NCBI RefSeq assembly: GCF_000003815.2
Contig: NC_049997.1
Span: 9,663,998-9,727,997 of the forward strand
Reading direction: 5' to 3'
Source: Branchiostoma floridae
Lineage: Eukaryota > Chordata > Leptocardii > Amphioxiformes > Branchiostomatidae
Length of the DNA stretch: 64,000 nt
Part shown: positions 3,370-30,152 of the stretch, piece after piece
Numbering within the stretch: the stretch's first letter is position 1
Layout of the letters: every line of letters begins with the position of its first letter
Made by a program: the position numbers and the translations under genes
Notes under the pieces: generated by a model
Told to the model about the DNA's origin: nothing
Databases searched by the model: none
The model's input: only the letters and a program-made list of their open reading frames with translations

Positions 3370-3700
3370 AATTGAGAGGTGCTTAAAAACCTTTAATACG
3401 TGCATGCACGCATGACGGAGTGAACCACATGCAAGGTCAAGAGAGATGACAAGAGTTTGATACTATATATATATAACGTTATATGCATTTGGCCTATTTG
3501 GTGTACACATGCCATGAGGACGTCAGTAACATCCTCAGCACAATCTAACAATTACTTAACATCGGCTTTTGACTGTCACTGACAACACTGAAGACAGTTC
3601 TTTGTCGTACAGAGTCTACCCATACAATCATTGTACAGAGTCTACCTAGTTTGCCAATCAGCTGTGCTCAGTCATCATCTAGATGTTTGAAGCCCGATTT

Positions 3701-6700
3701 TCAACGGGCGAGATCCCCGGGCTTGTCGCCAGGGTTACCTCCGAAACCGTCCGATTTTCCGCCAAAGTCACCCCCAAAAGACCCTCGGTCTCCACCAAAG
3801 TCACCCTCGAAAGACCCTCGGTCTCCACCAAAGTCACCCTCGAAAGACCCTCGGTCTCCACCAAAGTCACCCTCGAAAGACCCTCGGCCTCCTTCAAAGT
3901 TGCCCTCAAAAGACCCTCGTTCTCCACCAAAGTCACCCTCGAAAGACCCTCGGTCTCCTCCAGAGTTACCCTCAAAAGACCCTCTGTCTCCTCCAAAATT
4001 CCCTCCAAAAGACCCTTGGTCTCCTCCAAAGTTACCTTCGAAAGACCCTCGGTCTCCACCAGAGGTATCCCCGAAAGACCCTTGGTCTCCTCCAAAGTTA
4101 CCCTCGAAAGACCCTTGGTCTCCTCCAAAGTTACCCTCGAAAGACCCTCGGTCTCCTCCAAAATTCCCGTCAAAAGACCCTTGTTCTCCTCCAAAGTTAC
4201 CTCCGAAAGACCCTCGGTCTCCGCCTAAATCCCCACCAATAGACCCTCGGTCTCCTCCAAAATTCCCACCAATAGACCCTCGGTCTCCTCCAAAATTCCC
4301 ACCAATAGACCATCGGTCTCCTCCGAAATTTCCACCAATAGACCCTCGGTCTCCTCCAAAGTTACCCCCGAAAGACCCTCGGTCTCCGAAATCCCCACCA
4401 ATGGACCCTCGGTCTCCTCCAAAATTTCCACCAATAGACCCTCGGTCTCCTCCAAAATTACCCCCGAAAGACCCTCGGTCCCCTCCGAAATTCCCGCCCA
4501 TAGATCCTCGGTCCCCTCCGAAATTCCCACCCAAAGACCCTCGGTCTCCACCAACGTCACCCCCGATAGATCCTCCAAAGTTACCCCCAAAAGACCCTCG
4601 GTCTCCTCCGAAATTCCCACCAATAGACCCTCGGTCTCCTCCGAAATTCCCGCCCATAGATCCTCGGTCCCCTCCGAAATTCCCACCCAAAGACCCACGA
4701 TTCCCTCCAAAGTCAATTCCAATAGACCCTCGGTCTTTGCCAAAATCACCATTGAAAGACCCCCGGTCCCCATAGAAATCGTCCTCATATTTGTCCATGC
4801 CGTCCCTGAGCTGCCAGATGGGTTTTTGCTGACAGTCGTCACAGTCGCAGACAGCCACACGGCGGAACTCGGTCTCAGCTCCCTCCTGGAGTTCGATATC
4901 ATTGCCGTTCACTGGAGATGGATGAGTAGAGAGGATGGTTTAATATTAACGTTATTACACTTCCATGATGTTCTTCTGAACTCTCACTACTTGTTCCACC
5001 ATTGCGTATCACGATCGTGTAAAGAGATAACACGTGAAGCATACGAATGACGGAGGGAAGGACGCAACTGCGTTATGCTTCTTTTATTATTAAACAAACA
5101 TGTTATCAATATAACGTTAATCCCCACAAAGTAAAGGACATGATACTAACAGCACCTTATCTAGATACACACATAATATGTGCATGATTTGTTATAGGTT
5201 TAGAACATTTGTTTATGTTTGTATTACCCTACTATGGGTCGTATGCCCACAAATTACAGGATTAAAGACTTTTTAAGATTAAGTTACCTCGCCATTCTAT
5301 GTTCTCCGCGACCACTACATCAGAGGATTCTGGGTAGTGTTCCTTCACTTCTGCACCAAGCTCGTTCCTGTCGCCATGGAAACGATGGAAGTAGGTTCCA
5401 TTTCCCTGTCCAATCAGAAAATAATTAAGTGGTGCTATCGAAGTATATCTGTAACACATACTCAACCAATGAGACAACAAGAAATTCACGAATTCACGGC
5501 TGGAAATTGTTCCGTAGGCAGCTAAGGTGCAGAAAGCTGTCAGGTCGGTTGGTGGCGTTCTTGATGCACATGTATTACAGCTTCCTTTTTACGATGTTTT
5601 ACCATCTATTTACTGTCGTGAATTAACAATTAACATGTGCGCTATATCATGTTTTTCCTTTGCAAATCCCTAGGCCGGCTTCACTCCTCTACCAGCTTTC
5701 GATACTATCTTGTATGCTACCGTAGGATCTGCTTGGAGATTAGTCGACCGTGTAACGGGGGCTCTACGAGACTGAAATTGCCGCGCCCTAAAGGTGGTAT
5801 CTCACTGCACTTGCGTCACGCTTGCGTCACTGCGGGGTTCTAAAGATTCTCAACTAATTCAGAGATAAAGAACGAATTTTCTTACCTTTTGTGTATTTAG
5901 TCGTCTTCTAAGCCATACTTTTATTACGCATTACGCAATATCTAAATTATGAAAAATCGGCGAAAATAATTAACAGTGACGCAGTAAACGAACCCCGCAA
6001 TGACGCAAGCTTGACACTTGTGCAGTTTGATACCGCCGTAACCCACCAGCGGATCTGTGCTGAAGAGTTTCCCCCCGCGGTTGTCCGGACGGAACAGCCA
6101 CAGAAGAGCGTCTCCAGACTCTTCTTCCTTCAGGTACAGTCTGCACTGGGTCAGGTCTGCCGGGAAATCAAATTAGATTTTGTTAATTCGTCGTTGAACA
6201 TTAGACATATACAGGTAATGCTATACGCATTGATACTTAAGCAACTTATCACTTTTGGACGGTGCGAATTATAACAATTGTCCAGAAAAGAATGATTTTT
6301 AGTTGACATAAACAACTACATAACAAACAAACATTTGTAGTAGTGTGCGTCACTGAAATACATAGATTATATGAATACGTTCAACTTGTCGTTAGTAATG
6401 AAATATACCACTTATTTTGCTCAAAGGATTTGATGCGGAACGCTTTCGTTGCTTGTTAGAAAAAGTCCCTCGGTTCTACATTTGGGGAATGAAAGATGGT
6501 TACAGTTTAAGTTAAAGAACAGATAAACTTGTTACTCTTACTTTTCGGGACTTCTGGTTCGGCCCCCTGACAAGTCCTCCCGCAGCCGTTAGAACAACAT
6601 TTACTCCCCACGGCTTTGCAGTCGTCATCGGTCTCGCACTCCACTGCGCATGTGCCAACGGTACCGTACGGAACCTTGGGACATTTGCCTGTCTCCTCTG

Positions 6701-8143
6701 CAAAAATAAATGCAATGATTTTAAGGTGACAGCGAACTCATCTGTGTAATATCATTTATGTTAAGTCCTGTATCAATCTGCCAATGCCTTGTATGTTCTG
6801 TTAGTAATGACCCACGCATACATGTAACTTAATTTTCTTTTATCTCCGAAAAAAAATGATTTCACACATCAAGGACGCTTAGATCAGGTCTATATGGCAA
6901 TAGTTACGCATTGACTTTTGTTTTGAGAATCATGTTACAGCCAATCCTATTGTGCTTTTGTAGTTGATGTACTTTTTAGTGTCGTGTTAGAACTTCTAGG
7001 TGACTTTTCCCAAAATGTCATGAGCTCAATTTACAACGAGAAAATGTCAATGAAAGACAATAAAATTCTTCACTTGAACATCTCATGCGTATCTCATGAC
7101 AACTTTGGACATTTAACATAAAATCTTCGTTGAAGCTTCCCCTAATCTAAGTCTTGACTTTATTCAGAGTTTAGTGCGCGTCAATCAGAATGCTGCGCTT
7201 TATAGCAAGACCACAACACAACTGCCAATCTGTACAACCTAAAAGTCATTTCACAATGTGGGAAAATGTACTTGTCAACTTTTTTTCGCACCTCCTTTAC
7301 ACTTGACGGGCCTGCCGCTGTTCTTGTCGAAGAAGGCGACCTTGTCGCACCCCCCGCAGTAGGTGGGCACGCAGGTGATGTTGGAGTCCGGGCTGTTCGG
7401 GTCCAGGTCCCCGCACACGGCGGTCAGGCACGGGCTCACCTCCGCACATGCGTACGGGACGTACGGTACACCGGCCGGGCAGGCGGCTAACATGGAACAA
7501 CAGGTGTAAAGGTAGAGGTTAAGGTAGTCTTAGCCATTTTGAAGCCGTTGGGGCAGTGGTTTGTTATCCACTTTGTCTAGGGAAGGTACCGGATAGGTGT
7601 ACATGTGATTCGATAGCAAGGTTGTAAAATAAATGTTTTTTTCAAGACAAAATGCGTGTTGAAAACGCTTCCAGCTCAGACTTGAAATTTCAACAAAAAC
7701 AACTTACCACGAGTGTACTTCTTGCGGTCGTCGCTTCGGTAGTCGCCGCCACCGCCTCGGTAGTCTCCGCCGCCGGCTCGGTAGTTATCGGCAACATCTC
7801 GGTAGTTTCCGAGCCTGTCGTAGCCGCCAGAGTAGCCGCCGGCCGTGCTATAGGCATGGTGGTAGCTGCCATCAGTGTAGACATCCCTGCCGTAGTCGTA
7901 GCGATCCCGATTGTACCCCCCACCGGAGGTACTATCCTTCTCACCCCCGTACAGACCATAGTCGTCCTCACGACCAAGAGTTTCGTTCTTCTCTCCAACT
8001 GGTGGCTTACGTTCGCCTTCTTCGATCTTCTCTATCTCCTTCGAGATGCTCTCATCCAACTCAGGCTTTTCCTTCAAGTCGCCCTGTGGCAGGACCCCCA
8101 CACAGAACAGGGCTAGGAGCAGAAGTTGTAGAGTATACGCCAT
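3701..8143 (-). CDS. Gene A: secreted WAP protein with Gly-rich repeat tail (six exons)
   Basis: Coding exons are 8143-7708, 7486-7292, 6697-6542, 6156-6047, 5405-5288 and 4911-3701. All have AG/GT borders and compatible phases, giving 741 residues. Exon 1 has a signal peptide (MAYTLQLLLLALFCVGVLP), then acidic and Gly/Tyr-rich sequence. Exon 2 is a cysteine cassette with TYCGGC. Exon 3 is a complete WAP four-disulfide core (eight Cys, KCCSNGCGRTC); WAP domains are typically protease inhibitors or antimicrobial. Exons 4-6 open an unrecognised domain: C...LLWLFRPDNRGGKLFSTD, then GNGTYFHRF...IEWRV, then RRVAVCDCDDC. Exon 6 continues into roughly thirty GGDRGSIGGNF-like 11-residue repeats ending at TGA 3701. 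Gene B has the same exon order and phases. The job is unknown; an extracellular matrix, cuticle or mucus protein is an inference. Tail length may vary or be misassembled. Confidence 0.77.
5671..5744. repeat. MITE fragment (AATCTCCAAGCAGATC family)
   Basis: Reads as the reverse complement of the element at 31328-31489, sharing GGATCTGCTTGGAGATTAG and GATACTATCTTGTATGCTAC. It lies in gene A intron 4. Confidence 0.55.
5793..6037. mobile_element. Foldback MITE beside the gene A exon 4 donor
   Basis: The left arm begins GGTGGTATCTCACTGCACTT and the right arm ends with its near-complement (reverse complement GGCGGTATCAAACTGCACAA). The arms are about 48 bases and surround AT-rich DNA. The right end is 9 bases from the GT donor (6046-6045) of gene A exon 4. 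Confidence 0.75.
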
Positions 8144-8689
8144 GGCGGCTCAGAGGACCGTACGTACCGTGCGACCCGCAAAGTTCCTCTGACTGGAGTC
8201 CTACACCGCATTCCCCTTTTTGTATTGCCCTCTTTTAACACCAAACAAAGTAGACCAAAGTCACTGAAAAGGGGTATCTGCTATAATACGGCGTCTTTTT
8301 TGTCGTTCTTCCCGACCCAGTTAGGCGATATCAGTATTTTCATCCCCGGTTTTATTATGACAAGTGGCTGAAATTATTTTTCTGACGTGTTTCCGTCTAT
8401 CCAAGGCGATGGGAATAACATTTTTTTTTGCAAAAGAAACAAGCGTCAATGCTGTAAAGCCATCGTTTATTTTCTTTCATCGTGACACCAGACGGTGAAA
8501 GGCGTAACGGTGCATGGGATGAAAGGCTGTCGTTTGTGCAGAATACATCAATTTGTAAGTAAGTAAGCATTGAGTGAGTAAGGATTATTTGACGACCTGG
8601 AAACAATGGTACGACTCTTGTTGAGGTGAAGGACGGCTTCTATCCTGTTCACTGTATGTTAAGACTGCACGCTAAGACGATGTGTTTTG

Positions 8690-8960
8690 AGACTTCGAAT
8701 GGTTGAGTGGCTAGACTAGCGGACACGAGACCGAGAGGTCCCGGGTTCGATTTCTATCATTCATGATTAGACGTTCTGTCCTTGGAAAATGCACTTTTAT
8801 CACACGATTTTTCTCACTTCACCTAGGTGTAAAATATGTAGCTGACTTTGGTTGGAGAGGTAAAAGGTTGTGAAAGAAGAGAGTTGGGCTCCGCCTTCCA
8901 CCGTGCCCTAGACACAGTGGATAGCAACTGACTGTCCCTGTGGTCTCAAAAATGCTATTG
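8690..8960 (+). mobile_element. Degenerate tRNA-derived SINE
   Basis: A tRNA-like head (GGTTGAGTGGCTAGACTAGC; B-box-like GGTTCGATTTC at 8744-8754) is followed by a body with CTTGGAAAATGCACTT and TCACTTCACCTAGGTGTAAA. The full-length copy at 16674-17056 has the same order of parts. This copy has diverged and has no clear target-site duplication. Confidence 0.6.
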
Positions 8961-9678
8961 GGACTACATTTGCTTTTAATTCAGGGTTTAAAGAGCCGAT
9001 GTAGGAATTGATGCCATTGGAAAGAAATACATCCCTTGTTTCAGTACCATGGACAGAACCTAGAGTAGTCCCAATATGACGAATAGGTTGTGTAGCGTAC
9101 GAAGTTATGTGGTTGGAAACACTGCTTCTGAACCATGATATAGATTTTTATGCGAAAAATGCGTTGGACTCTTTGTTCTATATAGCAATTTCGAAGTTCA
9201 ACAAATTTTCTTAATGATGTTTAATAGAGTAAGTCGGGGATAGCGTGAGGCCAGTAGATTTAGGGGATATAATGCGTTATTGTGTTCTTCTTCTTTTTAA
9301 TAATATTGACGTCAAAACTACCACCGCTAATTATTTTCTTCTATGGTTACTTTTGTCTACTTGAGGCGTATTACTTCTGTGAAGTAATCTTGTTGCGTGT
9401 CAATTTTCCATCGTTTGCAGCTTTCGTGAATATTTTATAGACCGCTTTATTGTACTCATTGGATAAAGGACTGAAAGGGATTATATGGTTATGACTGAGT
9501 AGAAAATGCAATATCATTTGTATAATAACGTTAACGATGGCTTTGTGCTATAGAATGAGCATGTGGTCACAGCACAACACAAGGCTTAAATGCCTACACA
9601 ACTAATCCTAGCTGCGTGACTTGTGGCAAGAGAAGAAAGAAAAAGGACCGGGAGACGACGCTATTGATGTAAACATCT

Positions 9679-9684
9679 TTTATT
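9679..9684 (-). terminator. Poly(A) signal candidate for gene B
   Basis: AATAAA on the minus strand about 910 bases past the gene B stop. Usage is not shown by the sequence alone. Confidence 0.3.
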
Positions 9685-10087
9685 CATCGTGCATATCTTT
9701 ACATAGCTCTGACGCATGCAATCTACCGAATGGCACAAGCGAAGCAACAGTTGTTATCCATTTACAGCGTTCATTTGACCACCACCCCCTCGTCCGTTCT
9801 GATGTACAGTTAACGTTACAAATATACAAATTTTACGATTTACAAAAAGGGTAGACACGGTCTTCTTAGATTCTTATAAAACAATTTCTTTCATCATGGC
9901 TTTGCTTTCTTTCAAATCAATGGCTTTTTTAAAACAAATACATCTCACGTTACTTATACATCTGACGTTTAAGATCATTTTTCAAAACATTTCAAAGCCA
10001 CAACATTTTAAAACAGCCAGAAGCAAATTTCGTAAGGTTATTGATAAGCAGAAAATTTTGCAAATGTACTGATGTTTAATACGATGT

Positions 10088-10350
10088 GTGTGTTTGTCTG
10101 TATGCATATGTATGTATGTGAATCTGTATGTGTGTGTGTGTGTGTGTGTGTGCGTCTGTCTGTCTCTCTCTGTGCAGTGTGTGTGTTGTGTGTGTGTGTG
10201 TGTGTCTCTCTCTCTCTGTACAGTGTGTGTGTGTGTCTGTCTGTCTGTCTGTCCATCTGTCTCTCCCTCTGTCTCTCTCTGTGCAGTGTGTTTGTGTATG
10301 TGTATGTGTATCTCTCTCTTTCTCTCTTTCTTTCTCTGTCTCTCACCCTG
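10088..10350. repeat. TG/TC microsatellite cluster
   Basis: Runs of TG, TCTG and TC follow one another. All open frames here are low-complexity translations of the repeat and are not genes. Confidence 0.95.
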
Positions 10351-10595
10351 TAGTGTGTCTCATCAGTTTCGCAAATTAAAATTTGATGACAAACATCCAC
10401 AAGTTAATAGCGCTATTATTTCTAACATACCAAAAAGGCTTACTATATACTAAGCATGCACAGGCAACTTTTGAAAAGGTCATGTCGTCATCTCATCGTG
10501 TTTCCGTTCCTCATTGTCGCCGGTACTCGCCTTAGCACCGGGGGCCTTGGTCATTCGGGGCCCGGAGCCTAGGTTTCTTCGCATGGGCCGGCAGC

Positions 10596-13500
10596 CTAGA
10601 TCGGTATCGGTCCGGTACGTTCGTTGGGCCCGGGGCGCTGCCAGCCGCCGGTAGGTGGGGTGGGGCGTTGCCCATCATGAGGAGGTCGGGTGGGGAGTTT
10701 GCCGCTACCCGTGGGGCGTTGCCCGTGGCTGCCACCTGTGGGTCGGCTTCCGTCGCTGCCCGGCTGTCCGCCCTGTCCTCCGGGGCCCTGGTCGTTCGGC
10801 TTGCCGCGGCCGTCATCGCCATCCATGCCACCCACGGGTCCGTATCCACCATTCTGACCGTAGCCATCTTGGCGATCTGAACAATTTGGTATCAGAAATA
10901 AAAGTTAAACATCGGGAAAGCTTAGTACTAACACTGTACATAAGTCATACATGTGGTTGTATTTTCCAAAATTGTCTGATCTAACACAGCTTTCACGAAT
11001 AAACAAAGGTTCAAACTAACAAACGAACATTCCCTCTAAGTAAAGCACTTCGTTGCCCATTTGACGACCTGAACAAATCCATAAAGTAACAAGTCATAAA
11101 GTAAAATTTAAAAGGAGAAATAATTAACTGTTCTTCATCGTTATATGCATGGTTCAGAATTATGCCGGCTAGTTAGACACTTCCATTTCGATGGTCGGTC
11201 ACATTTTTTATCGAACAAAATAAGCAGACAAGACAAAGCAGAGACGGGCTCAAGTTGTAAAACTTATATCCGCGTCGCCACTTGTACATCATGAAAAAAA
11301 GCGACAGTAAATTTTTGCCCGTTTATGCCGAATTCTGATTACAAGTAACAGTTACGTGGGCTTTGCAAACATACAAGTGACAGAGATACATGGGAAACAT
11401 ACATGTGGCAAGGACAGTGATTAACATTATTGTAACAAGAAATTATTCAAATACAATTGTCTATATAAGATGACAAGTCGGCATTTGCTAACCTCTCATG
11501 TGACAGCCCTTACAGTTGCAGAGGGCGACAACCCGCCAGACGGTCTCTCCCGTGGTGTCCACTTCTCCCCGGTAGATCTTGTCCTCCTCCACTGTGTAAG
11601 GGAAAAGGCAGTTCATTAGACTGACTTGAAACAAAACTCGCGTTCGTTCAACCAATCACCCTCCCTCCTTCCTATATCTCACTGTCTGTCTCTCTTGTCG
11701 CCTCTCTCTTTTCCTTTTTCTTCTGCTCTCTTTCCATCTTTCTCCTCTCCCTCTCTCTCTCTTTTTTCCTCTCTCCTCTTCTCTCCCCTCTCTCTTTTCA
11801 ATCATTCTCTTTCCCCTCCTCTCCTCTCTAGATCTCCTTTCCTCTCTCTCCCTCTCTCTCTCTCTCTCTCGTGTGAAACTTTGCTGTTCATCCAAACGTT
11901 TTACTGCCCATTGATTAAAACAAGATAAAACAGTTGCCAGCCCCGCTCGAAGTCTGCGAAGGAGGCTGGTCTATGCCACTGTACAGAACCAACCTTTCCA
12001 CTCCACAAAAGGGCTGCCCGCGGCGGTGCTCTGTACCCTGATCGCCGTCTGAGCTTCAGCGGCTTGCTCGCTGATCTCCTGCGCCATCTCCTGCCGGGTC
12101 CCGGAGAACTTCGCAAAGGTGCTTCCATTACCCTGTCCACAAACGGTAAGGTGAGACATGATGTCAAACTAGTTTAGCTATAGCCCACTGAAGAGCTATA
12201 AAATCTTCCACTGGTCGTGACAGAGAAGACAAGGTACCTTAAGCTAGGGGCGTGACAACCCGCCGTACTTGCAAGTGCGTGCTGTCTACGTGCCAAAACG
12301 TATCCGTAAGTGGTAAGTGCCGTCTCCGTACGAACACGTGGCGATTCCCACGGATTTGGGAGCACGCAGACACGCCGTAGAAATTTAAGTGCATGCAGAA
12401 CTTTCTCTGCGTTCGGGCTGCGGATTCGCCCTCAGTACGTGCCAGTACGGGCGACGCACCTGCCATGTACAGACTGAACGTTCAAGTTCAGGAATACGTG
12501 GCGGACGTGGCCTCCACAAAAAACCTACGGACAAATTGCACGTACGGCGGGTTGTGCCCCAGGCTTTAAGTTTAATGAAGCTGCCGCGGGCAAGTTAGCG
12601 GTGTCACTGCGTCCTGAATTACATTTGTAATTAATCCTGAATTACTCTTGACTTTGTAATGGCAATATCATGCAAAACGTACAGACATGACCAAAAAGCT
12701 ACATGAACAAAACATACAAAAGAATAGAAGGTTTTGATCGTTTTTATGGATGAATTCAAATTGTTCGGTCGCATCGATGCCGTCAATGTGCCGCAGTTTC
12801 GATGGGATACCGTTTAACAGTATTTACAGATCCGCTGTGCCGGGAAAATCCCCCCTGCTCTTCTCGAAAAGTACACTGAATAGTGGACCACGGCTTAACG
12901 TCCCGACCTTAGGAGTGCAACCCTTCATTAGCATGTATATCGGATAGGCGACAGCAGATTGGTCCAGGGGTAGGGCCGTTTAAACCACTGGACTACGTAC
13001 TGTACGCTACTAAAAACTAGCTTACTTGTGCTCGTTACCGGATAAAGGTGAACCAATATTACTACAAATGTACCTTCGTCCGTCTCGAACTTTGCCCGCA
13101 TGCACTTCGTCCCACAGCCGTTGGACCAGCACTTTTGTATTAGACAAGACCACAACTGAACACAATGTTTTCTTGACCTGGCATTTGCATTCCACAAAAT
13201 CCTTAACTAACTTCTCTATAGGTTCACGTGCATTGCAGGTTGACAACACATCATTGCAATCCAGCCACCTGGCGGGAAAGTAGGACATTTCCAGAATTTA
13301 CATCTGACAGCACCTACCCGAGCGTCCGTGCTGTACAGCATGCCGCCCCGCTGGTCCGGCCGGAACAGCCACAGCTCCTGGTTCCCCTCCTCGTCCTGCT
13401 CGCCCAGCACCAGCTTACACGTTTTCACGTCTGGAACGACAATACCAGCTTTTATCTCCATGAAAAATGGATATACATTGTTTTAGTGTGTCTGTGTGTA

Positions 13501-15406
13501 TGTCTATGTGTCTCTCTGTGTGTGTCTGTTTGTGCTTTCCAACTTTACGGACGGTGATTTCAAAGTGCAATCTCTTTTAAATTTGAAAACATGCGAATTT
13601 AAAACCACCGTCCGTCAACTTGATGTCCCTAAATACCCTGTTTTTGAAAACGATGGATACATGTTACCCCGCGAATAAAGGTAAACGAATGTACTACCTT
13701 CGTCCGCCTCGAACTTTGCCCGCATGCACTGCATCCCACAGCCGTTGGAACAGCACTTTTGCCCCGCCTTGCAGTCGTCGTCGGAACTGCAGTTGTGAGC
13801 GCAGTGGCCCATATATCCGTACGGCACCGCCGGGCACTCGCCCTGTTCTTCTGCAAAAAGGAAACACCAAAAAGACGATCATGTTTTGCACTGAATGTTG
13901 TACAGCGAAATGTTTTGTAATGAAAATGTACTGTGCTTACAAGCAAGTTTCCCCATTTCACTCCATTCTTGGAGAAGCTTTCAATATTCAAGACTAATAC
14001 AGCTTAGGCTGGCGTCATATTTCCAAACCGGGACCGGTTGGGCTGTCTGTGGAATCGAAAAACAGAAATGTATACGTAAGAATATACACAAATAATGCTC
14101 ACGAGTCACGACTACTAGTATTCTCTTTACGTCTTGTGTAGGTCGGTAACGTTATATTTTATATCATACTTTTCGTTCCCGAAAGCTGCCCGACCGGACC
14201 GGGTCTGGAAATGTAACGTAGGCCCAACTGAGACAAACACAATTTAAAATCTTAAAACTTAAAATCAATTGAGAAAGAGTGACCTACCTCCATCACACTT
14301 GACCCGCTCGCCCCGTCCAGTTTTGTTGTAGAAGACCGGCGCGCACCTCGCGCCGCAGTAGTCGGGCACACAATGGACCTCATCAGCCGGCTGGCCTGCG
14401 CACACCGCACCTTCACACGGGTCCGACTCGCAGGCGTAGGGCGCGTAGATACCTCCTAGGGGACACTGGGCTGTTGTGGAGAGATGAACAACAACATCGA
14501 GAAATTAAAATCAAATGTGCTCCTTTTTATCACGGAGATTCTGCTTGGAACCTTCTTGTTTTCCCGATGCCACTCTCTGAAATAACTGGTGCAATGGCCA
14601 AGTGTAAAAAAACCAAGTGTTCACCTTACAGTCGGTAGGTCGTGAGTTGAGTCCCAACTGAGTCATATCTTTATTAAATCAAAAATGGTATATGCTGTCT
14701 TCAGCAATATTCAAATATTCCTTGAAATATTATTACAGCTAGAAATCCAGCATATTTCTGCTGTAGAAATACTGCTGTGATGTATAGCTACCATGAAACA
14801 TAAAAGAAGAAAAAGGAAAGTCTTAAGCGTACTTCTCCAAGCCGGCACATTACCGGCAAACAAAACTAATACTTTTTGAAATATTATTACAGCTAGCTTA
14901 TAGAAAGACGGTATTTTTCTCTGTTACTGTGTTGCATAAATATAGCTGCCATGCAACTAGCATTGATATGAAGGAAGAGAAGGGAATTTCTAAAGATGTA
15001 AAAGCGTACTTCTCCAAGCCGGCGCGTTGCCGCCACGATCACCCCGGCCGCTTCCCGCCGCCCCTGCCATCATGCCGAGGGCACTCCTCCACATGTCGAG
15101 GTAGTCTCCCATTTCGCCCATCATATCGCCCATCATGTCACCCCAACCGTCGCCGTCCCTGTCGCCTCGCATGTCACCTCCCATGCCATCACCCCTGTCG
15201 CCGTCCCTGTCGCCTCCCATGCCTCCCCTGTCACCTCCCATGCCGGCAGATGCGGCCATGACACGTTCCGTAATATCGCTCAACTCATCGGGTGACAATT
15301 CATCTAGAAAACCGCCCAAACCGCCTTCTCCCAGGTCGCGGTCCCCTAGGCCTGAAACCCCCAGCAGCAAACCGAACAGCAAGACGAGCACGCACGAACG
15401 CAACAT
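10596..15406 (-). CDS. Gene B: secreted WAP protein, paralogue of gene A (seven exons)
   Basis: Coding exons are 15406-15010, 14470-14288, 13850-13698, 13430-13318, 12132-11994, 11591-11493 and 10876-10596, with AG/GT borders and matching phases, giving 454 residues. Exon 1 has a signal peptide (MLRSCVLVLLFGLLLGVSG) then Gly/Asp/Arg/Met-rich repeats (GGDRDGDRGDG). Exon 2 is the cysteine cassette (DYCGARC). Exon 3 is a WAP domain with eight Cys (KCCSNGCGMQC). Exons 4-6 carry the unrecognised domain: TCKLVL...ELWLFRPDQRGGMLYSTD, then GNGSTFAKF...FVEWK, then WRVVALCNCKGC. Exon 7 is a Gly/Pro/Arg-rich tail ending at TAG. Gene A fuses the last two parts into one exon; B has an extra intron after CNCKGCHMR. 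The leader matches C and D more than A. A matrix or mucus role with protease inhibition is inferred from the WAP and tail only. Confidence 0.8.
11640..11880. repeat. Polypyrimidine CT-rich tract
   Basis: About 240 bases of almost pure C/T on the plus strand, inside gene B intron 5, between exons 5 and 6. On the transcribed strand it is a purine run. Open frames through it are repeat translations. Confidence 0.9.
12246..12562. mobile_element. MITE with GGGCGTGACAACCCGCCGTA ends
   Basis: The left end GGGCGTGACAACCCGCCGTA is mirrored at the right by CGTACGGCGGGTTGTGCCCC. The interior is unusually rich in ACGT/TACG words. It lies in gene B intron 4, between exons 4 and 5. Confidence 0.7.
13048..13140 (-). 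pseudogene. Decayed duplicate of the gene B WAP exon
   Basis: About 90 bases closely match the 3' part of WAP exon 3 and its flanking intron (13664-13762), including the donor. The translated remnant reads KCWSNGCGTKCMRAKFETDE. The paired cysteines have become Cys-Trp, the N-terminal half of the domain is missing and a TAG follows. It therefore looks like a dead exon duplicate between exons 4 and 5. Confidence 0.75.
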
Positions 15407-15461
15407 CTTGACCGCACGCGTGCCTCCTGAGTCCTGACTGACAACGCAGCCTCGTTCGACC

Positions 15462-15515
15462 TCAGGTATATCTTAAGAACAGTGACGCAGGAAGGACCAA
15501 GGTTGGTCTCCATGG
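15462..15515 (-). promoter_or_regulatory. Gene B proximal promoter block
   Basis: On the minus strand, GATATACCTGAG (TATA-like) lies about 55 bases before the ATG. A second block, read on the plus strand as TGACGCAGGAAGGACC and then CCATGG, begins 77 bases before the ATG. Gene D has both blocks at nearly the same distances; gene C has only the first. The TGACGCA core resembles a CRE/ATF site. Function is inferred from conservation between paralogues. Confidence 0.5.
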
Positions 15516-15519
15516 ATAT

Positions 15520-16660
15520 AACATCATTATCTCCTTGGAAATATGATGCATAATTTATACGTATTAATCTATAATCATGGTCTGACAATGGAAAATTACA
15601 CCCAATGGGTGCGGGCAATATCGCTAATGGCCGGAGGGTCTCTAACCGCATTGTTGCCAGTGGAGGAATGCTCACGCACGGCTTACAAGTTACGATGTGA
15701 ATGATTACGAGTGTACTTTATAGACATGGATACGGTGTCATGGACATTTGTGAAAAGGGACCAGGTTTGTATGAAAAGCAAGAATATAGCGAAACCCTAG
15801 TCTCTACCACTCCTGCCTGGCCGAATAGTTATAGGGGATTTTGTGGCCAAGTTAGGAATAAAAGACTAGTAGTAGGAGGAGTTACGTATACTAGCAATTG
15901 ACCTAGTAGTGAACCGACCGGCCGGCGGATAGCTGGATAGACTAGCGACTTCTTTGGCCCTATTTGGCCAAATTCTTCTCCTTTTTCCAGCTGACACGTC
16001 TGCCTGGAGATTAGCAAAAACCTTTCTTTTGCAGGTCTGGTATTATTGAGCGTCGTTAAATGTCAAAGATGACACAGCATATATGATTGGGTGATTAAAT
16101 ATTCATAGGTGGCGTGCAGGAGACAAGGCCAGTAGCACAGGGCATTGTACTACCGGTAAGTCTGTATCTGTCCGTACCAGGTGAGGGAATGGGCAATGTG
16201 TTATTACTCTAGTGAACGGTGCGTATCTCAGTATTAGGCTAAATTAGGTCACACTAAGTAAGTCTCATGGATGACATGGCGCGAAATTACCAAAATGAGC
16301 AAATATGTTGTGTTGTAGCCTAATGATTGTACTTCTAGAAGTGACGTTTGGAAGGTACACAGGATCACACAGGACTGTAGTTGTAGAAGTGAAACTAGTT
16401 GGATAGTGCACCAATATGGAAGCCATGTAGTAACCAACTTTACCAGTCTACCACACTAATGTCACTTTTACTACACCAGTTCATGTCATGAATACAGGAA
16501 TGAATGCCTTGTTGGCTGTGATACCATGTTTTGTCCCTTTAATTCTTGTTACAACGTTTATGGTGTCTACTTTGAAAATGTATCCATCTTGCTTTTTCTT
16601 CCCCATCATGTTTTTTTCGCTCTATCGCACCATTTGTGCAGCCTGAAGAAGATGTCATCC
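15520..16660. other. Intergenic stretch upstream of gene B
   Basis: No gene is supported. The part around 16287-16440 (AAATGAGCAAATATGTTG, TAATGATTGTACTTCTAGAA) resembles 51440-51560, so a dispersed repeat is present. Confidence 0.5.
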
Positions 16661-16673
16661 ATAAAATTAACTT

Positions 16674-17056
16674 TACGTGGGACCGCGTAGCGCAGTGGGA
16701 CCGTGTTCGCCCCGTGACCGAGAGGTTGCGGGTTCGAATCCGCCTGCCGTGTTACCGATCTTGTGCCCTTGGGAAAGGCACTTTACACGGCTTTCCTCAC
16801 TATACTCAGGTGAAAATAAGTACCTAGCTTCGGCTCACGGTGATTTACATCATTCACCCGGACGGGAGACCTAGCGCATATGAAAGGGTAATATAAGGGG
16901 CGGTATAAGCCCGTCGTGTGTAAACATGTGCGAACATGTGCGATCACGTCGACCGATGATGTATGTTCGTCTGTATCTCTGTGGATCTGCCGCTACCAGC
17001 CCAAAGCTGCCTAGGCAGATCCGTGTAATGAGTTGTATCACTGGCAATAAATAAAA
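16674..17056 (+). mobile_element. Full-length tRNA-derived SINE with 13-bp target duplication
   Basis: ATAAAATTAACTT occurs at 16661-16673 and again at 17057-17069, an exact 13-base target-site duplication. The element starts with a tRNA-like head containing an A box (TAGCGCAGTGG, 16688-16698) and B box (GGTTCGAATCC, 16731-16741) for RNA polymerase III. It continues with a conserved body (CTTGGGAAAGGCACTTTACA) and ends in an AATAAATAAAA-type tail. These features together indicate a relatively young SINE copied by a LINE partner. Confidence 0.9.
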
Positions 17057-17069
17057 ATAAAATTAACTT

Positions 17070-18046
17070 GCTGTGGCCTTAGGTATAGGTATGTATGTAT
17101 TGGCCCCGCCTTGGAAAGGTCATTCTCTCTATATTTCATTCCAAGAGCGAGACCAAATCATTCATATATAGCTATGATGTAACCCATATACTGTTATGGA
17201 TGATATAGTGTAGTTCTAATCGTGGGATAGATGTATATTGTTGTTATAATATAATATAATAACAATAAATTGTTGTTGAACAGCTGCTGTCAAACATTTG
17301 GTAAGTACCATGTGCCGTAGTCGAGCAATAAAGTTTTATTCATTTATAATTGCGGGCGGAAACAAAAACACACCGTCTATTGAATTCTTTTGTGGTACCG
17401 TATTATCAGTCATCTTTCTCATTGTGCGTTATATAAGTTGAAATGTTCGGAGAAATCTTGTCTCTACAGTAAAATAACATAAACACACCAGACAATACCT
17501 CGTGTAATTCATATATTTTATCTAGTTAAAATACATGTGTCTAAGTAGCTTCAAACATTTTAGGAATACCTGCCATACTCCTGACCACGATCCAAAATCT
17601 TTTACCATTTTTTCAAAGACTTTCGTTCATCACCAATATAATAACAATAATAATGATAATAACTTAATTGCAAGATTATACCCGAAGGCTAATTGCAAAT
17701 AAAGTAAAACAGTGGTATACACTGAATAGTATACTTAGTATATATATACGTAAAGAATGAAAATCAAATAAATTGATCAATCAATTATTCTATAGTCTAA
17801 TTCTATTTCTACTTAAACTATTTGAAGGATATGGCTATCTTTTCGCATGCAGTGAAAGTCCAACATTTTCGTAGATGGCAGGGTTCATATTTTTCATAGG
17901 GTTGGACGACTTAAGCAAGAATTATTGCAAATTCATACCTGTAGGCTACTTCCAAGTGAACGATAATTAAAAATATAGTGCAAGTATATAGTGGAACAAG
18001 TATACACGTCAAACCGACTATGAACTTCGGACATTATACGTTGTTT
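17070..18046. other. AT-rich intergenic DNA
   Basis: No exon, RNA gene or element is recognised. It contains short AT tracts and a minus-strand AATAAA near 17335 that could serve gene C. Confidence 0.5.
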
Positions 18047-18600
18047 CGGCGTAGTTTCTCCTGTACTTTCTCCCGTACTTTCCCCGTCCTTTCTCACGTA
18101 GTCTCCACGTACTTTCTCACGTAAATACCCCGTGGTTTCTTCCGTTCCCTTCCCGTAGTTTCTCTCGTAGTCTCCCCGTACTTTCTCCCGCAGTCGCCCG
18201 TACTTTCTCACGTAGTCTCCCCGTACTTTCTCACGTAGTCTCTCCGTACTTTCTCACACAGTCTCCCCGTACTTTCTCACGCAGTCTCCCCGTAGTTTCT
18301 CCCGTAGTCTCCCCGTACTTTCCGCCGTAGTCTCCCAGTCCTTTTTCCCGTAGTATCCCCGTATTCTCACCGTAGTTTCTCCAGTAATGCCGCTCGTAGT
18401 TTTTGGCGTACTCTCCCCGTAGTTTTTCCCGTAGTCTCCCCGTACTTTCTCCTGTAGTCTCCCCGTACTTTCTTCCGTACTCTCCCCGCACTTTCTCCCG
18501 TACTCTCCCCTACTTTCTCCCATACTCTCCCCGCACTTTCTCCTGTAGTCTCCCCGCACTTTCTCCAGTAGTCTCCCCGTACTTTCTCCCGTAGTTTTCC
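18047..18600. repeat. 23-bp minisatellite
   Basis: Imperfect tandem copies of CGTACTTTCTCACGTAGTCT plus CCC, each made of two similar halves. The period is not a multiple of three, so the open frames here shift between copies and look like repeat artefacts. The array begins about 110 bases past the distal stop of gene C. Confidence 0.85.
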
Positions 18601-18707
18601 AGTTGCTCATCCTAACTTTTTTCGCAAGAAATCTAAGAGCCCCCCTCCCCCCGAACTTTCCGAAACCGACTTTCCTCCATGCTGCTTCGTACCTTAAATG
18701 TCGCCTC

Positions 18708-19454
18708 TCACAGTTCGCCTCTCCCTCTATCGCCCCTGCCGCCCCTTCTTCCTGCTCTCATCCCCTCCCCTCTGTCGGGCCCCATGTAGTATTCCCTGTC
18801 GTAGCCCATACCGTCTCCCCTGCCAAAACGAAAGACGTCTTCTTCTCGGGGGTCTCGGTGCACAGGGTGCCTCAGTGGTTCATCTCTCCTGAAGTCAGGG
18901 AAATCTCTCCTGTAGCGTTCATTGCCTTCTCTCTTTCAGAACTCCGGCAAGTCTGTCATGTAACGCTCCCTGCCTCCTCTCTTTGCGAACTCTGGATGCT
19001 CTCTCATGTAACGTTCCCTGTCGCCTCTCTTTCCATCTTCCGGAAATTCTCCCATGTAAGCTTCTCTCTTTTCTCTCATCCTATCTTCCGGGAATCGTCT
19101 CTTTCCCCCTTCCTTTCCTTCCCAAGTTGCCCAAGGGTACTTTATCCGGGGGTCTTCGAATTCGAAGCCTCTATCGTCGGCGCCTCTGGGTCTTCGTCTG
19201 CGGGCCCGTTCGTCGTTCTCGGGCCTTTTCGTCGCATCGCCGCCCTTCTTGTTCCCTCCTTCTCCCCCGGACTCGTCGCTCTTCCCGCCATTTTGCTCCT
19301 CCTTCCCGCCATTTTGCTCCTCCTTCCCGCCATTTTGCTCCTCCTTCCCGCCATTTTCCTCTTCTTTCCCGCCAATTTCCTCGGCAGGCACCGGTTCACA
19401 GGACACCGCCTGCAGCAAGCCGAGTAGGAGAACGCAGACCCACCAGCGACACAT
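18708..19454 (-). CDS. Gene C: secreted charged-repeat protein with an in-frame TGA
   Basis: The ATG at 19454 opens a leader MCRWWVCVLLLGLLQAVSC like those of genes B and D. Several GGKEEQN heptads follow, then an Arg/Glu-rich region with a repeat ERYMREHPEFAKRGGR. At codon 173 (18938-18936) the frame meets TGA, giving 172 residues if it is the true end. The same frame continues for 75 codons without another stop. Its first part, KREGNERYRRDFPDF, is another copy of the repeat, and it then runs into an RGGRGDRGRGE-type tail ending at TGA 18708. The upstream codons before 19454 lack the leader context, so 19454 is chosen as start. The internal TGA may be a recent nonsense allele, a sequence error or a real stop. 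No WAP exon is seen downstream. Function is unknown. Confidence 0.6.
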
Positions 19455-19510
19455 CTCGACTGTCTCGTCTCTTCTGACTACGGACGACTTTAACGATCTT
19501 TTCAATCAAC

Positions 19511-19524
19511 ACTAGGTATATATC
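19511..19524 (-). promoter_or_regulatory. TATA-like element of gene C
   Basis: The minus strand reads GATATATACCTAGTGTTGAT about 58 bases before the ATG. Genes B (GATATACCTGAG) and D (GATATCTTTACCTGGTGTTG) have related words at 50-60 bases upstream, so this is a shared core-promoter candidate. Confidence 0.5.
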
Positions 19525-20151
19525 ATGTTACAGGCAATAACTTAATGAGGTTTTTTTTAGATGAAATGGTTTTAAATAATCAGGATTGAATTTCTCATAG
19601 ACGACAAAGAAAAACAACATCTGCGAGCTAACGCCAAATATTTCACTGCCATTAATATATACTTTCTAAAAGTGATGACATGTATACTACTAAGCACGGT
19701 CCATATGTCTTTGACACAGGAATCCTATGTATAAATATGAACGTTTTATGAGTGTGACAAAGCACGACTGGAGAAAAGATTGCAAGGGGAAAATGAATAA
19801 AAGTTTGACAGAAATATTCATGGGTCGCGTGCCGCCTTTTGTGGGCCTGATTAAGTCTGTGCTTGTTCGTGCCAGGCGTAAGAAGGACAACTTGTTGCTG
19901 TAGTCTCGTTTGATAGATCTGCATACTCTAACAACAGAGGTTCGGCTCCGACTGATTTCACACTATTTTCTACTCTTAGTTTTTGTGACTGTGCATGCAA
20001 TTAGCCTTCGGGCATGATTCTGCAAATAAACCATTGATTTTTATGCGTCCCTAGTTTTAGGAATTTTGTCGGCCTTTCAATTTTGTCCCCTTTTCTTCAT
20101 GTCCGTTAGTCCGGTGGACAGGAAGAATATAGAGAGCCGCATAAAGCACGT

Positions 20152-20710
20152 GCCTTGTTTCAGTACCATGGACAGAACCTAGAGTAGTCCCAATATGACA
20201 GTTGCGCAACGTGCGCAGGCTAGGGACCCTGCCAAGCTTCAAATCTTATAATACATATCATTGAATTGTAATGTGCCGTCTTCTTGAAAGCAAAATAGCA
20301 ATGTGGGAATCGACGCCATTGAAGAGAACTACATTGAATGATTCCTTGTTTCAGTACCATGGACAGAACCTAGAGTCGTGCCAATATAATAGTTGCGCAG
20401 AGCGCGCAGGTTAGGGACCCTGGTGGGAACTTTGGTTGGAGAGATAAAAGGAAAGGCTAATAGTAGGCTTTCTGGGCTTTTTTTATCTTTTTTAGGGGGG
20501 GGGGGGGTCGGCCGGCCGGTCGGCGGGACAAGCAACCCAGTACAAAAAGCCAGCAAAAGTGTATTATGAGAAACAAAGGCACAGAGAGCCTGCTATGGAG
20601 TCTTATAAAAGACAATGTGAAAGGGGTGGGATCCGCCCTCTATTACCGAGCCCCACATACAGTGGATAACAACCCACTGCCACTATAGCCTCAAAACGGC
20701 TATAGGACTA
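20152..20710. repeat. Dispersed repeat and SINE pieces
   Basis: CAGTACCATGGACAGAACCT occurs at about 20161 and 20352, and also near 9045. The second copy runs into TTTGGTTGGAGAGATAAAAG and GGGATCCGCCCTCTATTACC, words also found in the SINE-like copy at 8840-8960. A poly-G tract (about 20498-20510) interrupts it. No gene is seen in 19525-21236. Confidence 0.65.
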
Positions 20711-20765
20711 CCTTTACCTACTTTTATGTTTACAAATGTATTAGTAGATCTAACGCCCTTTTTGT

Positions 20766-20870
20766 TACCCTGGTATCCAGCCGTAATGTAGCTCCCGAGT
20801 CTCTTCTCTCTTCTTTGCAAAGTGGATAGAAGAGACTCGGGAGCTATATTACGGCTGGATACCAGGCTAC
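20766..20870. mobile_element. Near-perfect foldback MITE (TAGCCTGGTATCCAGCC ends)
   Basis: Left arm CCTGGTATCCAGCCGTAATG and onward is mirrored by the right arm ending TTACGGCTGGATACCAGG, with about 40-base arms. Related ends (TAGCCTGGANNCCAGNCT) mark elements at 34703-34789, 45594-45770 and 52304-52459. Confidence 0.75.
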
Positions 20871-21236
20871 CTTTTTGTATCAGTGATCTCATACAGAGTC
20901 ATAGCTTCCACTTTCTTATCGTGGATCATAAGATCACAAGAATGTGCTGATATCCGCTACCAACTACAGCTCATTTGCGTTCCAATGCGTTCATATTTTG
21001 AGGCTACGTGCAAGGGTGCTCATGTACTTACTAACATGGTTTCATTTGTTGAATAGGTAGGGAGGTTTTAATTGAAGACAACAGCGAGGAAAAGAAAAGA
21101 CAGCACGTATTGCAACTGAAAAGAATTACTCAGTGACATAGACATTTGAATCTCAAACCTATATACACCCTGTACTAATGACGGTCACTGCAAATGTAAA
21201 AAAGAACCTCCACCATAGAAATTGTTGTATAGCTGA

Positions 21237-21242
21237 TTTATT
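21237..21242 (-). terminator. Poly(A) signal candidate for gene D
   Basis: Minus-strand AATAAA about 340 bases beyond the gene D stop, at a sensible 3' UTR distance. Confidence 0.5.
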
Positions 21243-21580
21243 GTACACATCAATATAGCCAAATTTTACAGAGGTCACTCTTGCTGAGGCTGATATCTGA
21301 TTAAATGTGTTCATTTCTTGTACATAAAGTGAATTCCTTTGCCAATCCTTGTATGTACATTATCTTCCGCCACAAAGATGACCTTTGACTTGACAAGACT
21401 ATGCCTAAGATTACGTCAGGCTCGCGGTTAAATACTCCGCGTAACATCATGCAGTGTTTCCTTATATTCCGAGTCATCTTCGTATTGCAAGTCGGCTTCT
21501 TGTAATATGCCAATTGGTGGCCTGACGACAAGGCCTGTCACTCTCCATCCATCTCCGCCGCCGTCTCCACGGGGAGATCA

Positions 21581-22417
21581 TCAGGGCCTTACCCGGGGCC
21601 CTCCCCTGCCACGGACCCTTCTTCCTTCCTTGCCGTCGAAAACGTCATCTTTGAACTTGCCTTTTTCGAACGTTCCTTCTTTCCTGCCTTCTTCGTTTCC
21701 TCCGAACATTCCGGGGAACTTCCCGCCCTTTTTGCCTTTTCCGATTCCGGGGATCTTTCCGTCTTCTTTGTCTGCTCCCATTCCGGGGAACTTACCGGAG
21801 AACTTTCCGTCTTCCTTGCCTTTTCCGATTCCGCCAAACATTCCGGGGAACTTTCCGTCCTTCTTGCCTCCTTCCATCCCGCTGAACAGCCGTTTGAACA
21901 TGTCCTTTTTCTTGCGTCCTTTCATTCCGCCAAGTAGTCGGCCCAACATTTCTTCTTTCTCGCCTTCTCCAATTCCGCGAAACAGTCGGCCCAACATTTC
22001 TCCCTTCTTGTCTTCTCCAATTCCACGGAACAGTCGGCCCAACATTTCTTCTTTCTTGCCTCCTTCCATCCCGCCGAACATTCCGTTGATCAATCCGGTA
22101 AACTTTCCGTCTTCCTTGCCTTCTCCCATCCCGAACTTTCCGTCTTCCTTGCCTTCTCCCATCCCGAATTTTCCGTCTTCCTTGCCTTCTCCCATCCCGA
22201 ACTTTCCGTCTTTCTCGCGGCCGAAAGGTTCGCCTTCCTTGCCGTCGAACAGTTCGCCTTCCTTGCCGTCGAACAGTTCGCCTTCCTTGCCGCCGAACAG
22301 TCCGGCTGACCTGAAGCGTCCTCTGCTTCCTCCCCTCAGGCTGCCTCCATACATCGGTCGACAGGACACCCCCATCAGCAAGCCCATGAGCAGGACGAGA
22401 ACAAACGAACGCGACAT
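21581..22417 (-). CDS. Gene D: secreted Gly/Lys-rich repeat protein
   Basis: A single open frame of 278 residues starts at ATG 22417 with the leader MSRSFVLVLLMGLLMGVSC, nearly that of gene B. After cleavage it has GGKEGELFD repeats, three GKEDGKFGMGE units of 11 residues, and longer units of the type EEMLGRLFRGIGE and GKFPGMFGG. It ends in an Arg/Gly-rich tail. There are almost no Cys after the leader and no WAP domain. The final codons contain CCCCGG|GTAAGG, a good donor sequence, so the frame might instead splice onward; a stop at 21581 plus AATAAA at 21242 also makes a complete single-exon gene. The promoter block is shared with gene B. A structural secreted protein is an inference from composition. 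Confidence 0.7.
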   Translation of the reverse strand: MSRSFVLVLLMGLLMGVSCRPMYGGSLRGGSRGRFRSAGLFGGKEGELFDGKEGELFDGKEGEPFGREKDGKFGMGEGKEDGKFGMGEGKEDGKFGMGEGKEDGKFTGLINGMFGGMEGGKKEEMLGRLFRGIGEDKKGEMLGRLFRGIGEGEKEEMLGRLLGGMKGRKKKDMFKRLFSGMEGGKKDGKFPGMFGGIGKGKEDGKFSGKFPGMGADKEDGKIPGIGKGKKGGKFPGMFGGNEEGRKEGTFEKGKFKDDVFDGKEGRRVRGRGGPRVRP

Positions 22418-22466
22418 CTCGACTGACAGACAACTTCGCCTCTATCTGACGAATTTTAGATCAACA

Positions 22467-22517
22467 CCAGGTAAAGATATCTTTCAATCGATGACGTAGG
22501 AAGGTCAGTTACCATGG
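22467..22517 (-). promoter_or_regulatory. Gene D proximal promoter block
   Basis: TATA-like GATATCTTTACC (minus strand) lies about 55 bases before the ATG. On the plus strand, TGACGTAGGAAGGTCAG begins 75 bases before it, followed by GTTACCATGG at 22508. Gene B has TGACGCAGGAAGGACC and CCATGG at almost the same offsets. TGACGTA is CRE-like; GTTACCATGG resembles an RFX half-site only weakly. Confidence 0.5.
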
Positions 22518-22519
22518 AA

Positions 22520-23514
22520 ATCTGACGGTCTGTAGCACGAAGTCCTGTTTAATGAAGTCATCTTCTCAAGATAGGAATTTACTGTTCTATCATTACAAGC
22601 AACATCCCATACTTACAGGGGCTTCAACTGATTAGAACTAGATTGTTTGCTAGCCTACTAGCAGGCTTTACTAGGCCAAGCTTGTGGGCTTATAATATGT
22701 TTTTTTCCTCTGATCTCTGATGGCATATGAACTCACTTTATTTTAGCCAGCCTCTTGCTTTGAGACTCCGAAATTTATAAGGTTCTTCAGAAAAAATCGA
22801 GTTCAATAGGACAAAATTCACTAATCATTAGGATAGAACACATTATGAGATTAAAAAAAACAGCCTGCAAGATCCTGAAATGGAGGCTTACATATCCCAT
22901 GGTAATAGGGACTCCGACTGACTAAAACTAGATTGTTTTCTGTGAAAGAGACGATGTCGCAAGGCAGAAGTACTGATCTCCAAGCAGATGTTGGGTGGAG
23001 AAAATTGCAACTATTTTGACCTGTCAACTTTTTAATACTTTTCTTCCCCAAAATGAGAGAAAAGACGGCCTGTAGAAAACTTTGTCTATCCAATATCTGC
23101 TGGGACTTGAACGGGTACCACTTATGATTTCACTTCGCTGGTACCGGGAGATCTAAACTGTCTACTTTTTTTCAATGTTCTTTCAGAAACTTGTAGTATA
23201 TCATGTATGTACAGTTAACAGCTATTCTTTTTATGAGCAAAAAGTGCCTGAAATTAATCTGAAATATTATTTTTATCATTGCCGTGCCTGTAGTAAGATA
23301 TGTCGGTATGGTATACATCTGTCATTTCATGGGCCTGAAGTGACTTGATTAAAGTTTAAATATTCATAAGTCGCATGCAGCCTTTTGTATTGATTAAAGT
23401 GCTTGTGACACCAATAAAATGACACTTAGCTAACGTTGATAACGTCATACACAAACAAGACGAGAAGGTACTTCAAGCAACAAAGTCAAGCAAGCAGCTA
23501 CTTTTTATTTTTCT
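22520..23514. other. Intergenic DNA upstream of gene D
   Basis: No gene is recognised. A fragment near 22976 (ATCTCCAAGCAGATGTTGGG) belongs to the MITE families listed elsewhere. Confidence 0.5.
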
Positions 23515-30003: not shown

Positions 30004-30152
30004 GATGATAATATTTCGTATCTACAATGATTATCTGTATCTACAAATATCATGCTTAATCTTTTGTTTTAAAGTGTAAAAGTTGGAATATGAAGATCTG
30101 CATATGAATTGTCATTTTTTTTCTGTCTTAGAGCCACCTTGCTACATTCAAA

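Follow-up and report, generated by a model that had tools for sequence, protein, structure and literature searches.

Silk-like structural proteins have been recognized with a rule (SilkSlider) that combines a leader with at least 25% glycine within 80 residues or, in a looser setting, 35% within 28 residues; some of these proteins join glycine-rich parts to folded domains, and an immunity-related sea urchin family is among the false positives of the glycine rule (PMC4944945). The main text of that paper contains no occurrence of Branchiostoma or amphioxus. Here, a group of four genes, A to D, located on a 64,000-nucleotide (nt) stretch of Branchiostoma floridae DNA (contig NC_049997.1, positions 9,663,998 to 9,727,997; hereafter the window), was analyzed and compared with such systems. 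The predicted products of A, B, and D resemble the silk-like proteins in having a leader predicted by hydropathy, no second strongly hydrophobic span, and at least 25% glycine; the rule is one of composition and does not define a family, and C falls outside it.

Other described systems resemble the cluster in part. The SCPP/salivary cluster with the mucin MUC7 consists of clustered secreted genes with a conserved signal peptide and repeat change within an exon (PMC4997351). Clustering, a kept signal peptide, and repeat change inside the exon are also seen in A to D, but the SCPP cluster is a vertebrate family and is compared here by mode of evolution only. In SCPP genes, the signal peptide lies on its own early exon. 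The KRMP shell matrix proteins of pearl oysters are short secreted chains with lysine-rich and Gly/Tyr regions (PMC4498902). The D product is likewise short, predicted to be secreted, and rich in lysine and glycine, but the Gly/Tyr region is unmatched in mature D, which has one tyrosine (counted by eye). Lancelets are not known to build a shell. Perlwapin-like modular matrix proteins combine cysteine-rich modules with a glycine-rich part. The same combination is found in lustrin A (PMC4498902). A and B also join cysteine modules to glycine-rich parts, but the modules and their order differ, and the likeness holds by description only. With the WAP four-disulfide-core proteins (PF00095), A and B have in common one WAP exon each, as one of several parts. 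Literature searches, in which subscription papers were mostly out of reach, revealed no account of these four genes or of WAP and glycine-rich secreted proteins from lancelets among the papers listed.

All four genes lie on the minus strand; following transcription, D comes first, then C, B, and A. This agrees with the original prediction, which had proposed four genes of the same orientation at these coordinates. The exons of A and B join into long open reading frames, and C and D are single-exon frames.

Gene A: 8143-3701, minus strand, 6 exons (8143-7708, 7486-7292, 6697-6542, 6156-6047, 5405-5288, and 4911-3701), 741 amino acids (aa); leader and Tyr/Gly/Asp part in exon 1, 8-cysteine exon 2, WAP exon 3, a domain spanning exons 4 to 6, and about 31 Gly/Asp/Arg 11-mers.
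Gene B: 15406-10596, minus strand, 7 exons (15406-15010, 14470-14288, 13850-13698, 13430-13318, 12132-11994, 11591-11493, and 10876-10596), 454 aa; leader of the C/D type, Gly/Asp/Met/Arg exon 1, cysteine body of the A type, and Gly/Pro/Gln tail.
Gene C: 19454-18936, minus strand, single-exon frame, 172 aa; the leader is followed by GGKEEQN heptads and these by 16-residue (48-nt) units.
Gene D: 22417-21581, minus strand, single-exon frame, 278 aa; leader and 8-, 11-, and 16-residue Gly/Lys/Glu repeats.

The title of the original prediction had ascribed a common leader and promoter to all four genes. This holds for B, C, and D, which have in common a block of about 155 nt comprising the core promoter, the 5' leader, and the signal peptide, and does not hold for A. 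The TATA-like words begin 66 (B), 70 (C), and 64 (D) nt before the ATG.

Front block of B: 15347-15501, minus strand; TATA-like GATATACC at 15472-15465, 5' leader, and signal peptide.
Front block of C: 19395-19550, minus strand; TATA-like GATATATACC at 19524-19515, 5' leader, and signal peptide.
Front block of D: 22357-22512, minus strand; GATATCTTTACC at 22481-22470, 5' leader, and signal peptide.

The close likeness of the three leader peptides, also part of the original prediction, was borne out. They are identical at 11 (B-C), 14 (B-D), and 13 (C-D) of 21 residues, compared with 4 to 7 in pairs with A, and at 39, 46, and 44 of 63 bases of the leader DNA. Permutation within the n, h, and c regions gave p = 0.0019 for B-C and 0 of 20,000 permutations for both B-D and C-D. 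Profiles built from two front blocks recovered the third in the window with E values of 1.9e-16 (D), 7.1e-13 (C), and 2.8e-11 (B); the next-best other site had an E value of 0.7, and the front end of A was never recovered. Leader-only profiles also recovered the third copy (E values of 7e-7 for D, 0.0025 for C, and 8.4e-5 for B). With profiles of the promoter alone (-95 to -1), the third copy was always the top new match, at E values of 0.0014 (D), 0.04 (C), and 0.62 (B), and local alignment of the 200 upstream nt was significant for C-D (p = 0.001) and B-D (p = 0.018) and not for B-C (p = 0.25). The front ends of B, C, and D are thus related DNA, although the promoter taken alone is a weaker match than the leader; with an E value of 0.62, the promoter of B is the least firmly tied to the others. 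An alignment of the leader DNA of A and D speaks for a relation of A to this group (p = 0.004, or p = 0.034 with the 200 upstream nt added), but the profiles did not find A.

The genome searched comprises 513,431,437 bases (431 contigs), and its contig C19 contains the window. A 35-nt pattern that begins in the start context and extends into the leader was found with up to 3 mismatches at 3 sites, which are those of B, C, and D only, and the reversed-pattern control gave 0 sites. As the pattern was derived from these three genes, it matches them by construction, and the informative result is that there is no fourth site; such pattern counts can be lower bounds. A DNA search with the front block of D matched only D itself. 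Because it missed B and C, this search was too insensitive for copy counts, for which we relied on the pattern search. Front blocks were not found in the flanks of the window (40 kb to the left and 20 kb to the right; best E value, 4.5) or, at an E value of 1, in 20 stretches of 10 kb around WAP matches that form part of the 42 described below.

Comparison of the 1.4 kb upstream of each gene revealed a second element of about 25 nt, separate from the front block and unmentioned in the original prediction. The trigger was a B-D score of 35 in the region from -1000 to -500, compared with 29 for the best of 200 shuffles. The shared block measures 25 to 31 nt; in C and D it reads ACAAAAGGC-GCA-GCGAC--ATGAATATTT, and it is shorter in B.

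Distal element of B: 16097-16119, minus strand, about 700 nt upstream of the ATG; leave-one-out E value, 0.018; the extent given is that of this hit.
Distal element of C: 19812-19844, minus strand, about 367 nt upstream of the ATG; leave-one-out E value, 1e-5.
Distal element of D: 23355-23409, minus strand, about 950 nt upstream of the ATG; leave-one-out E value, 1.8e-5.

In every leave-one-out search of the window, the third copy was the top new match. The pair scores were 35 for B-D and 42 for C-D (shuffle maxima, 31) and 32 for B-C, which equals its own shuffle maximum. In the three-way block of 25 nt, at least 20 of 25 positions are identical in every pair, whereas 1,500 triples drawn at random from the window never attained this level (highest value, 17); triples in which A replaced one of the genes gave 0, 12, and 0, and no copy of the element was found upstream of A. 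A 22-nt pattern of the element occurs in the genome at 3 sites with 0 mismatches, all in this cluster, at 0 sites with 1 mismatch, and at 3 sites elsewhere with 2 mismatches, and the reversed pattern occurs at 0 sites. These counts indicate that the distal element is not a common repeat.

The shared front blocks might simply be left over from duplication and not reflect any common regulation today. The tandem order and the same orientation of the genes are in line with this explanation, as is the moderate synonymous divergence of the leaders (0.56 to 1.04 among B, C, and D, from only 20 codons). However, no pair of B, C, and D scored above its own shuffles in the DNA between the blocks (-250 to -85 and -500 to -250), yet the farther 25-nt block is kept, a result that favors selection on the block over slow decay. 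Moreover, since the element lies at differing distances from the ATG (367, 700, and 950 nt), it is not part of one unbroken copied piece. We therefore attach a low probability to duplication residue as the explanation. Two shared control blocks with words that, at the mismatch levels searched, occur in the genome only at B, C, and D make it likely that these three genes are under common regulation.

Two further upstream matches, one between A and C (47 identical bases) and one between A and B, are dispersed repeats and not copies of the distal element. Copies of a dispersed repeat are located near A (9034-9080) and between C and D (20153-20231 and 20344-20422); 47 bases are identical in the copies at 9034-9080 and 20153-20231.

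The mature parts behind the leaders are built of different repeat units: 33 nt in A, 21 and 48 nt in C, and 24, 33, and 48 nt in D. In the 25 full 11-mer units of A, the differences fall on codon positions 1, 2, and 3 in the numbers 306, 322, and 1184 (1184 of 1812 at the third position), with a ratio of synonymous to nonsynonymous differences (pS/pN) of 3.75. This third-position bias indicates that the 11-mers are coding and constrained. For the four 48-nt units of D, the pS/pN ratio was 1.6. Homology of the payloads was tried for B-C, B-D, and C-D, and protein tests and codon-shuffled DNA tests were null (p = 0.065 to 0.73). Exon 1 of B and the D protein each matched the A tail with a protein score found in 0 of 300 shuffles, the DNA giving p = 1.0 and p = 0.98, respectively, and C matched the B tail with p = 0.033 for protein and p = 0.93 for DNA; these likenesses are read as shared composition. 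The earlier description of the payload repeats as unrelated stands in that the units differ and the tests for B, C, and D are null. It is partly a matter of detection limit: DNA at such divergence is often undetectable as related, so "unrelated" here means that relatedness was not demonstrated.

In all four gene models, leader and payload lie within one exon. The proposal that a secretion exon had been kept while the payload exon was replaced is therefore wrong, and repeat turnover inside the exon fits better.

Gene C stops at the first codon of a third 48-nt unit, although beyond this stop the repeat runs on in frame. Either C ends at this stop, or this genome copy bears a shortened form. In the stretches scanned, gene C has its sole downstream poly(A)-signal word at 17340, some 1.6 kb beyond the gene; such words are found at 3397 and 3369 behind A, at 10080 and 9684 behind B, and at 21242 and 21072 behind D. 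A tandem array follows C.

23-nt tandem array behind gene C: 18050-18597, minus strand, largely open in the three minus frames, without a consistent codon-position signal.

A longer gene C running through this array was considered and rejected, the codon-position signal being inconsistent (differences by position of 6/8/10, 10/7/2, and 2/4/1 at lags of 23, 46, and 69). In the genome search, gene C matched itself only, and the 2 NCBIfam matches, both for C, lay far under the curated cutoffs. C, and perhaps D, could be regarded as decaying copies whose open frames are left over from stop-free repeat arrays. The stop within the repeat, the array that is open by composition, and the remote poly(A) signal would agree with decay of C. 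Against it, C and D, like B, retain the leader and the two shared blocks, and D has a full frame with an AATAAA at 21242, 340 nt 3' of that frame. Decay of these genes is very unlikely on this evidence.

A and B were found to be alike far beyond the WAP domain. In their cysteine bodies, 103 of 233 aligned columns are identical; the intron phases of A are 1, 1, 1, 0, and 1, and B has the same five and one extra intron of phase 1. Mature A and mature B contain 20 cysteines each, all 20 of which are invariant columns in the alignment. A counting estimate over 212 codons gave a nonsynonymous divergence (dN) of 0.51 and a synonymous divergence (dS) of 1.64 (dN/dS, about 0.3). According to the predicted models, A and B are tandem paralogues over the entire cysteine body, and by this estimate the body is under purifying selection. 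B thus combines a body of the A type with a front end of the C/D type. All internal junctions of A and B have an AG acceptor ahead of the exon and a GT donor behind it, and the GC content is 0.56 (A) and 0.64 (B) in exons and 0.38 (A) and 0.42 (B) in introns. Weak donors were noted by eye (GTGCGA at A exon 2, GTGGGT at A exon 4, and GTACGC at B exon 1, the last being the least certain junction among the models), so that single junctions may be a few codons off.

A Pfam search, for which, as for NCBIfam, the query for A was the first 406 of its 741 residues, predicted a WAP domain (PF00095) in A (33.7 bits; E value, 4.4e-8) and in B (43.3 bits; E value, 4.4e-11), above the cutoff of 20.8 bits and with the eight cysteines aligned in both; the Pfam search gave no WAP match for C or D. 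The original prediction had A and B adding WAP and other cysteine domains. The WAP domains are present, although the domains are not mere additions, the two genes being paralogues over the whole body. A genome search for WAP returned 42 matches among those listed. Exon 2 encodes an 8-cysteine module, and exons 4 to 6 encode one stretch bearing the motif LWLFRPD-RGG-L-STD; neither the module nor this domain gave a Pfam family match or a solved-structure match. A relative of exon 2 was found on contig C3 (E value, 1e-4) near a WAP exon, the 8-cysteine module being about 1.3 kb from that exon (L016 4440-4200 and 2960-2700, minus strand). Sequences like exon 4 are present twice on contig C14, once at 110501-110629 (63% identity, with the splice donor at the same position as judged by eye) and once at 118433-118576 (54% identity, one internal stop); with the A version as the query, the former was found only at an E value of 0.2 and the latter was not found. 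No relatives of the A/B body were confirmed in prokaryote and virus collections. In the intron between exons 4 and 5 of B, a 67-nt copy (94%) of the 3' end of exon 3 is located at 13071-13137; by this match it is a partial exon duplication.

The WAP domain raises the question of defense. WAP proteins and some glycine-rich families act in defense, which makes a secreted innate-defense family the main rival explanation: antibacterial or antiprotease WAP proteins with glycine-rich and charged relatives that diversify like the sea urchin 185/333 proteins. Besides anosmin 1, the solved WAP chains matched include nawaprin, omwaprin, elafin, and antileukoproteinase, and binding to microbes is conceivable for a basic glycine-rich chain like that of D. 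The 185/333 proteins have a leader, an N-terminal glycine-rich region, and a C-terminal histidine-rich region (PMC1831783). A to D have glycine-rich parts but no histidine-rich region in the four sequences (by eye). In addition, the roughly 31 near-regular 11-mers of A, which are under purifying selection, are more like a structural chain, and B, C, and D are alike only in front and not in the mature part. A defense family is rather unlikely in light of these differences.

The composition of the predicted products of A, B, and D fits that of structural secreted proteins. Hydropathy maxima (KD19) were 1.74 to 2.16 in the leaders and 1.11 (A), 0.37 (B), -1.17 (C), and -0.19 (D) in the mature proteins, which have no further strongly hydrophobic span by this measure. 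The glycine maxima per 80 residues were 47% (A), 33% (B), 23% (C), and 34% (D), so that three of the four pass the 25% rule and C narrowly fails; with the looser setting, C would pass at 36%. Among 40 ATG frames of at least 100 aa in the window, 3 combine a hydrophobic start with 25% glycine, namely, those with which A, B, and D begin; for A and B, the frame runs on into intron 1. The net charge is -47 for A, -25 for B, -5 for C, and +14 for D.

From these data, A to D probably form a small tandem cluster that encodes components of one secreted extracellular material, such as mucus, cuticle, or matrix; co-expression and the tissue are what we infer from the DNA. The distal element and the core promoter would direct expression of B, C, and D in a common set of secretory cells, and the leaders would send the chains of A to D outside the cell. 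There, the glycine-rich repeats could act as flexible, multivalent chains, acidic A and B and basic D may attract each other, and the disulfide-rich body of A and B might serve as a folded anchor, a crosslink point, or a protease guard. Several results weigh against an extracellular material made by this cluster. A is without both shared elements. The promoter block of B is weakly matched on its own (E value, 0.62), and no distal element is weaker than that of B, whose E value is 0.018 and whose score with C (32) was equaled by the best of 200 shuffles; the distal element as such was spotted post hoc, from a pairwise comparison. The signal peptides of A to D were predicted by hydropathy only, C misses the 80-residue glycine rule (23%) and its frame ends inside a repeat unit, and the repeats of D are under weaker coding constraint than those of A (pS/pN, 1.6). 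Finally, the non-homology of the payloads is partly a detection limit, as the DNA from -250 to -85 between these genes is also unalignable.

The history of the cluster may have been one of 5'-end duplication, after which repeats arose and disappeared downstream of the signal cleavage site; in this way, control DNA and leader would outlast the protein they served. Two schemes fit the data. In the first, B took the front end of C/D onto a body of the A type. In the second, the front end was already present in the ancestor of A and B, whose 5' part gave rise to C and D, and was lost from A. In both schemes, leader and control DNA were inherited jointly while the exported part changed. We put forward, tentatively and as a possibility that is still doubtful, that a front end private to the cluster, made up of the signal peptide, the core promoter, and the distal element, was placed on unlike payloads, including the multi-exon WAP gene B, and that the export program of one cell type is the inherited unit, with payloads recruited or grown by repeats behind it.

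Further features were observed in the window. An inverted pair (23780-24114 and 25245-25582) shows 95% identity over 338 columns, and a 104-nt stretch at 20766-20869 matches its own reverse complement at 90%. A related pair at 8726-8851 and 16713-16833 (70%) looks tRNA derived by eye; ARAGORN called no tRNA there, and its scan of the window found none. Tandem arrays with long open frames are located at 53195-54016 (66-nt unit, 12 copies, 93%) and 55301-55563 (18-nt unit, 15 copies, 97%). An open frame at 708-1337 on the minus strand has a hydrophobic start and thrombospondin type 1 repeats (PF00090; E value, 1.4e-6) and adjoins a run of 100 N at 1524-1623. Beside the cluster, a homeobox gene is located at 30132-33100 on the plus strand, with an N-terminal frame at 30132-30731, a likely middle homeodomain exon within the frame at 31148-31357 (by eye), and a last exon encoding the homeodomain end (PF00046; E value, 2e-4; 21.5 bits, under the cutoff of 22.9).

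The domain encoded by exons 4 to 6 of A and B has no Pfam match, and its first exon is also present on another contig. The two short DNA words confined to B, C, and D, at the mismatch levels searched, are candidates for tissue-specific activity. Should the same short elements govern B, C, and D, the cluster would offer a small natural example of control DNA and a signal peptide outliving the protein that they serve. The origin of new proteins of a secreted material would then become addressable as a choice between repeat growth behind a standing export cassette and movement of the cassette onto an older gene.

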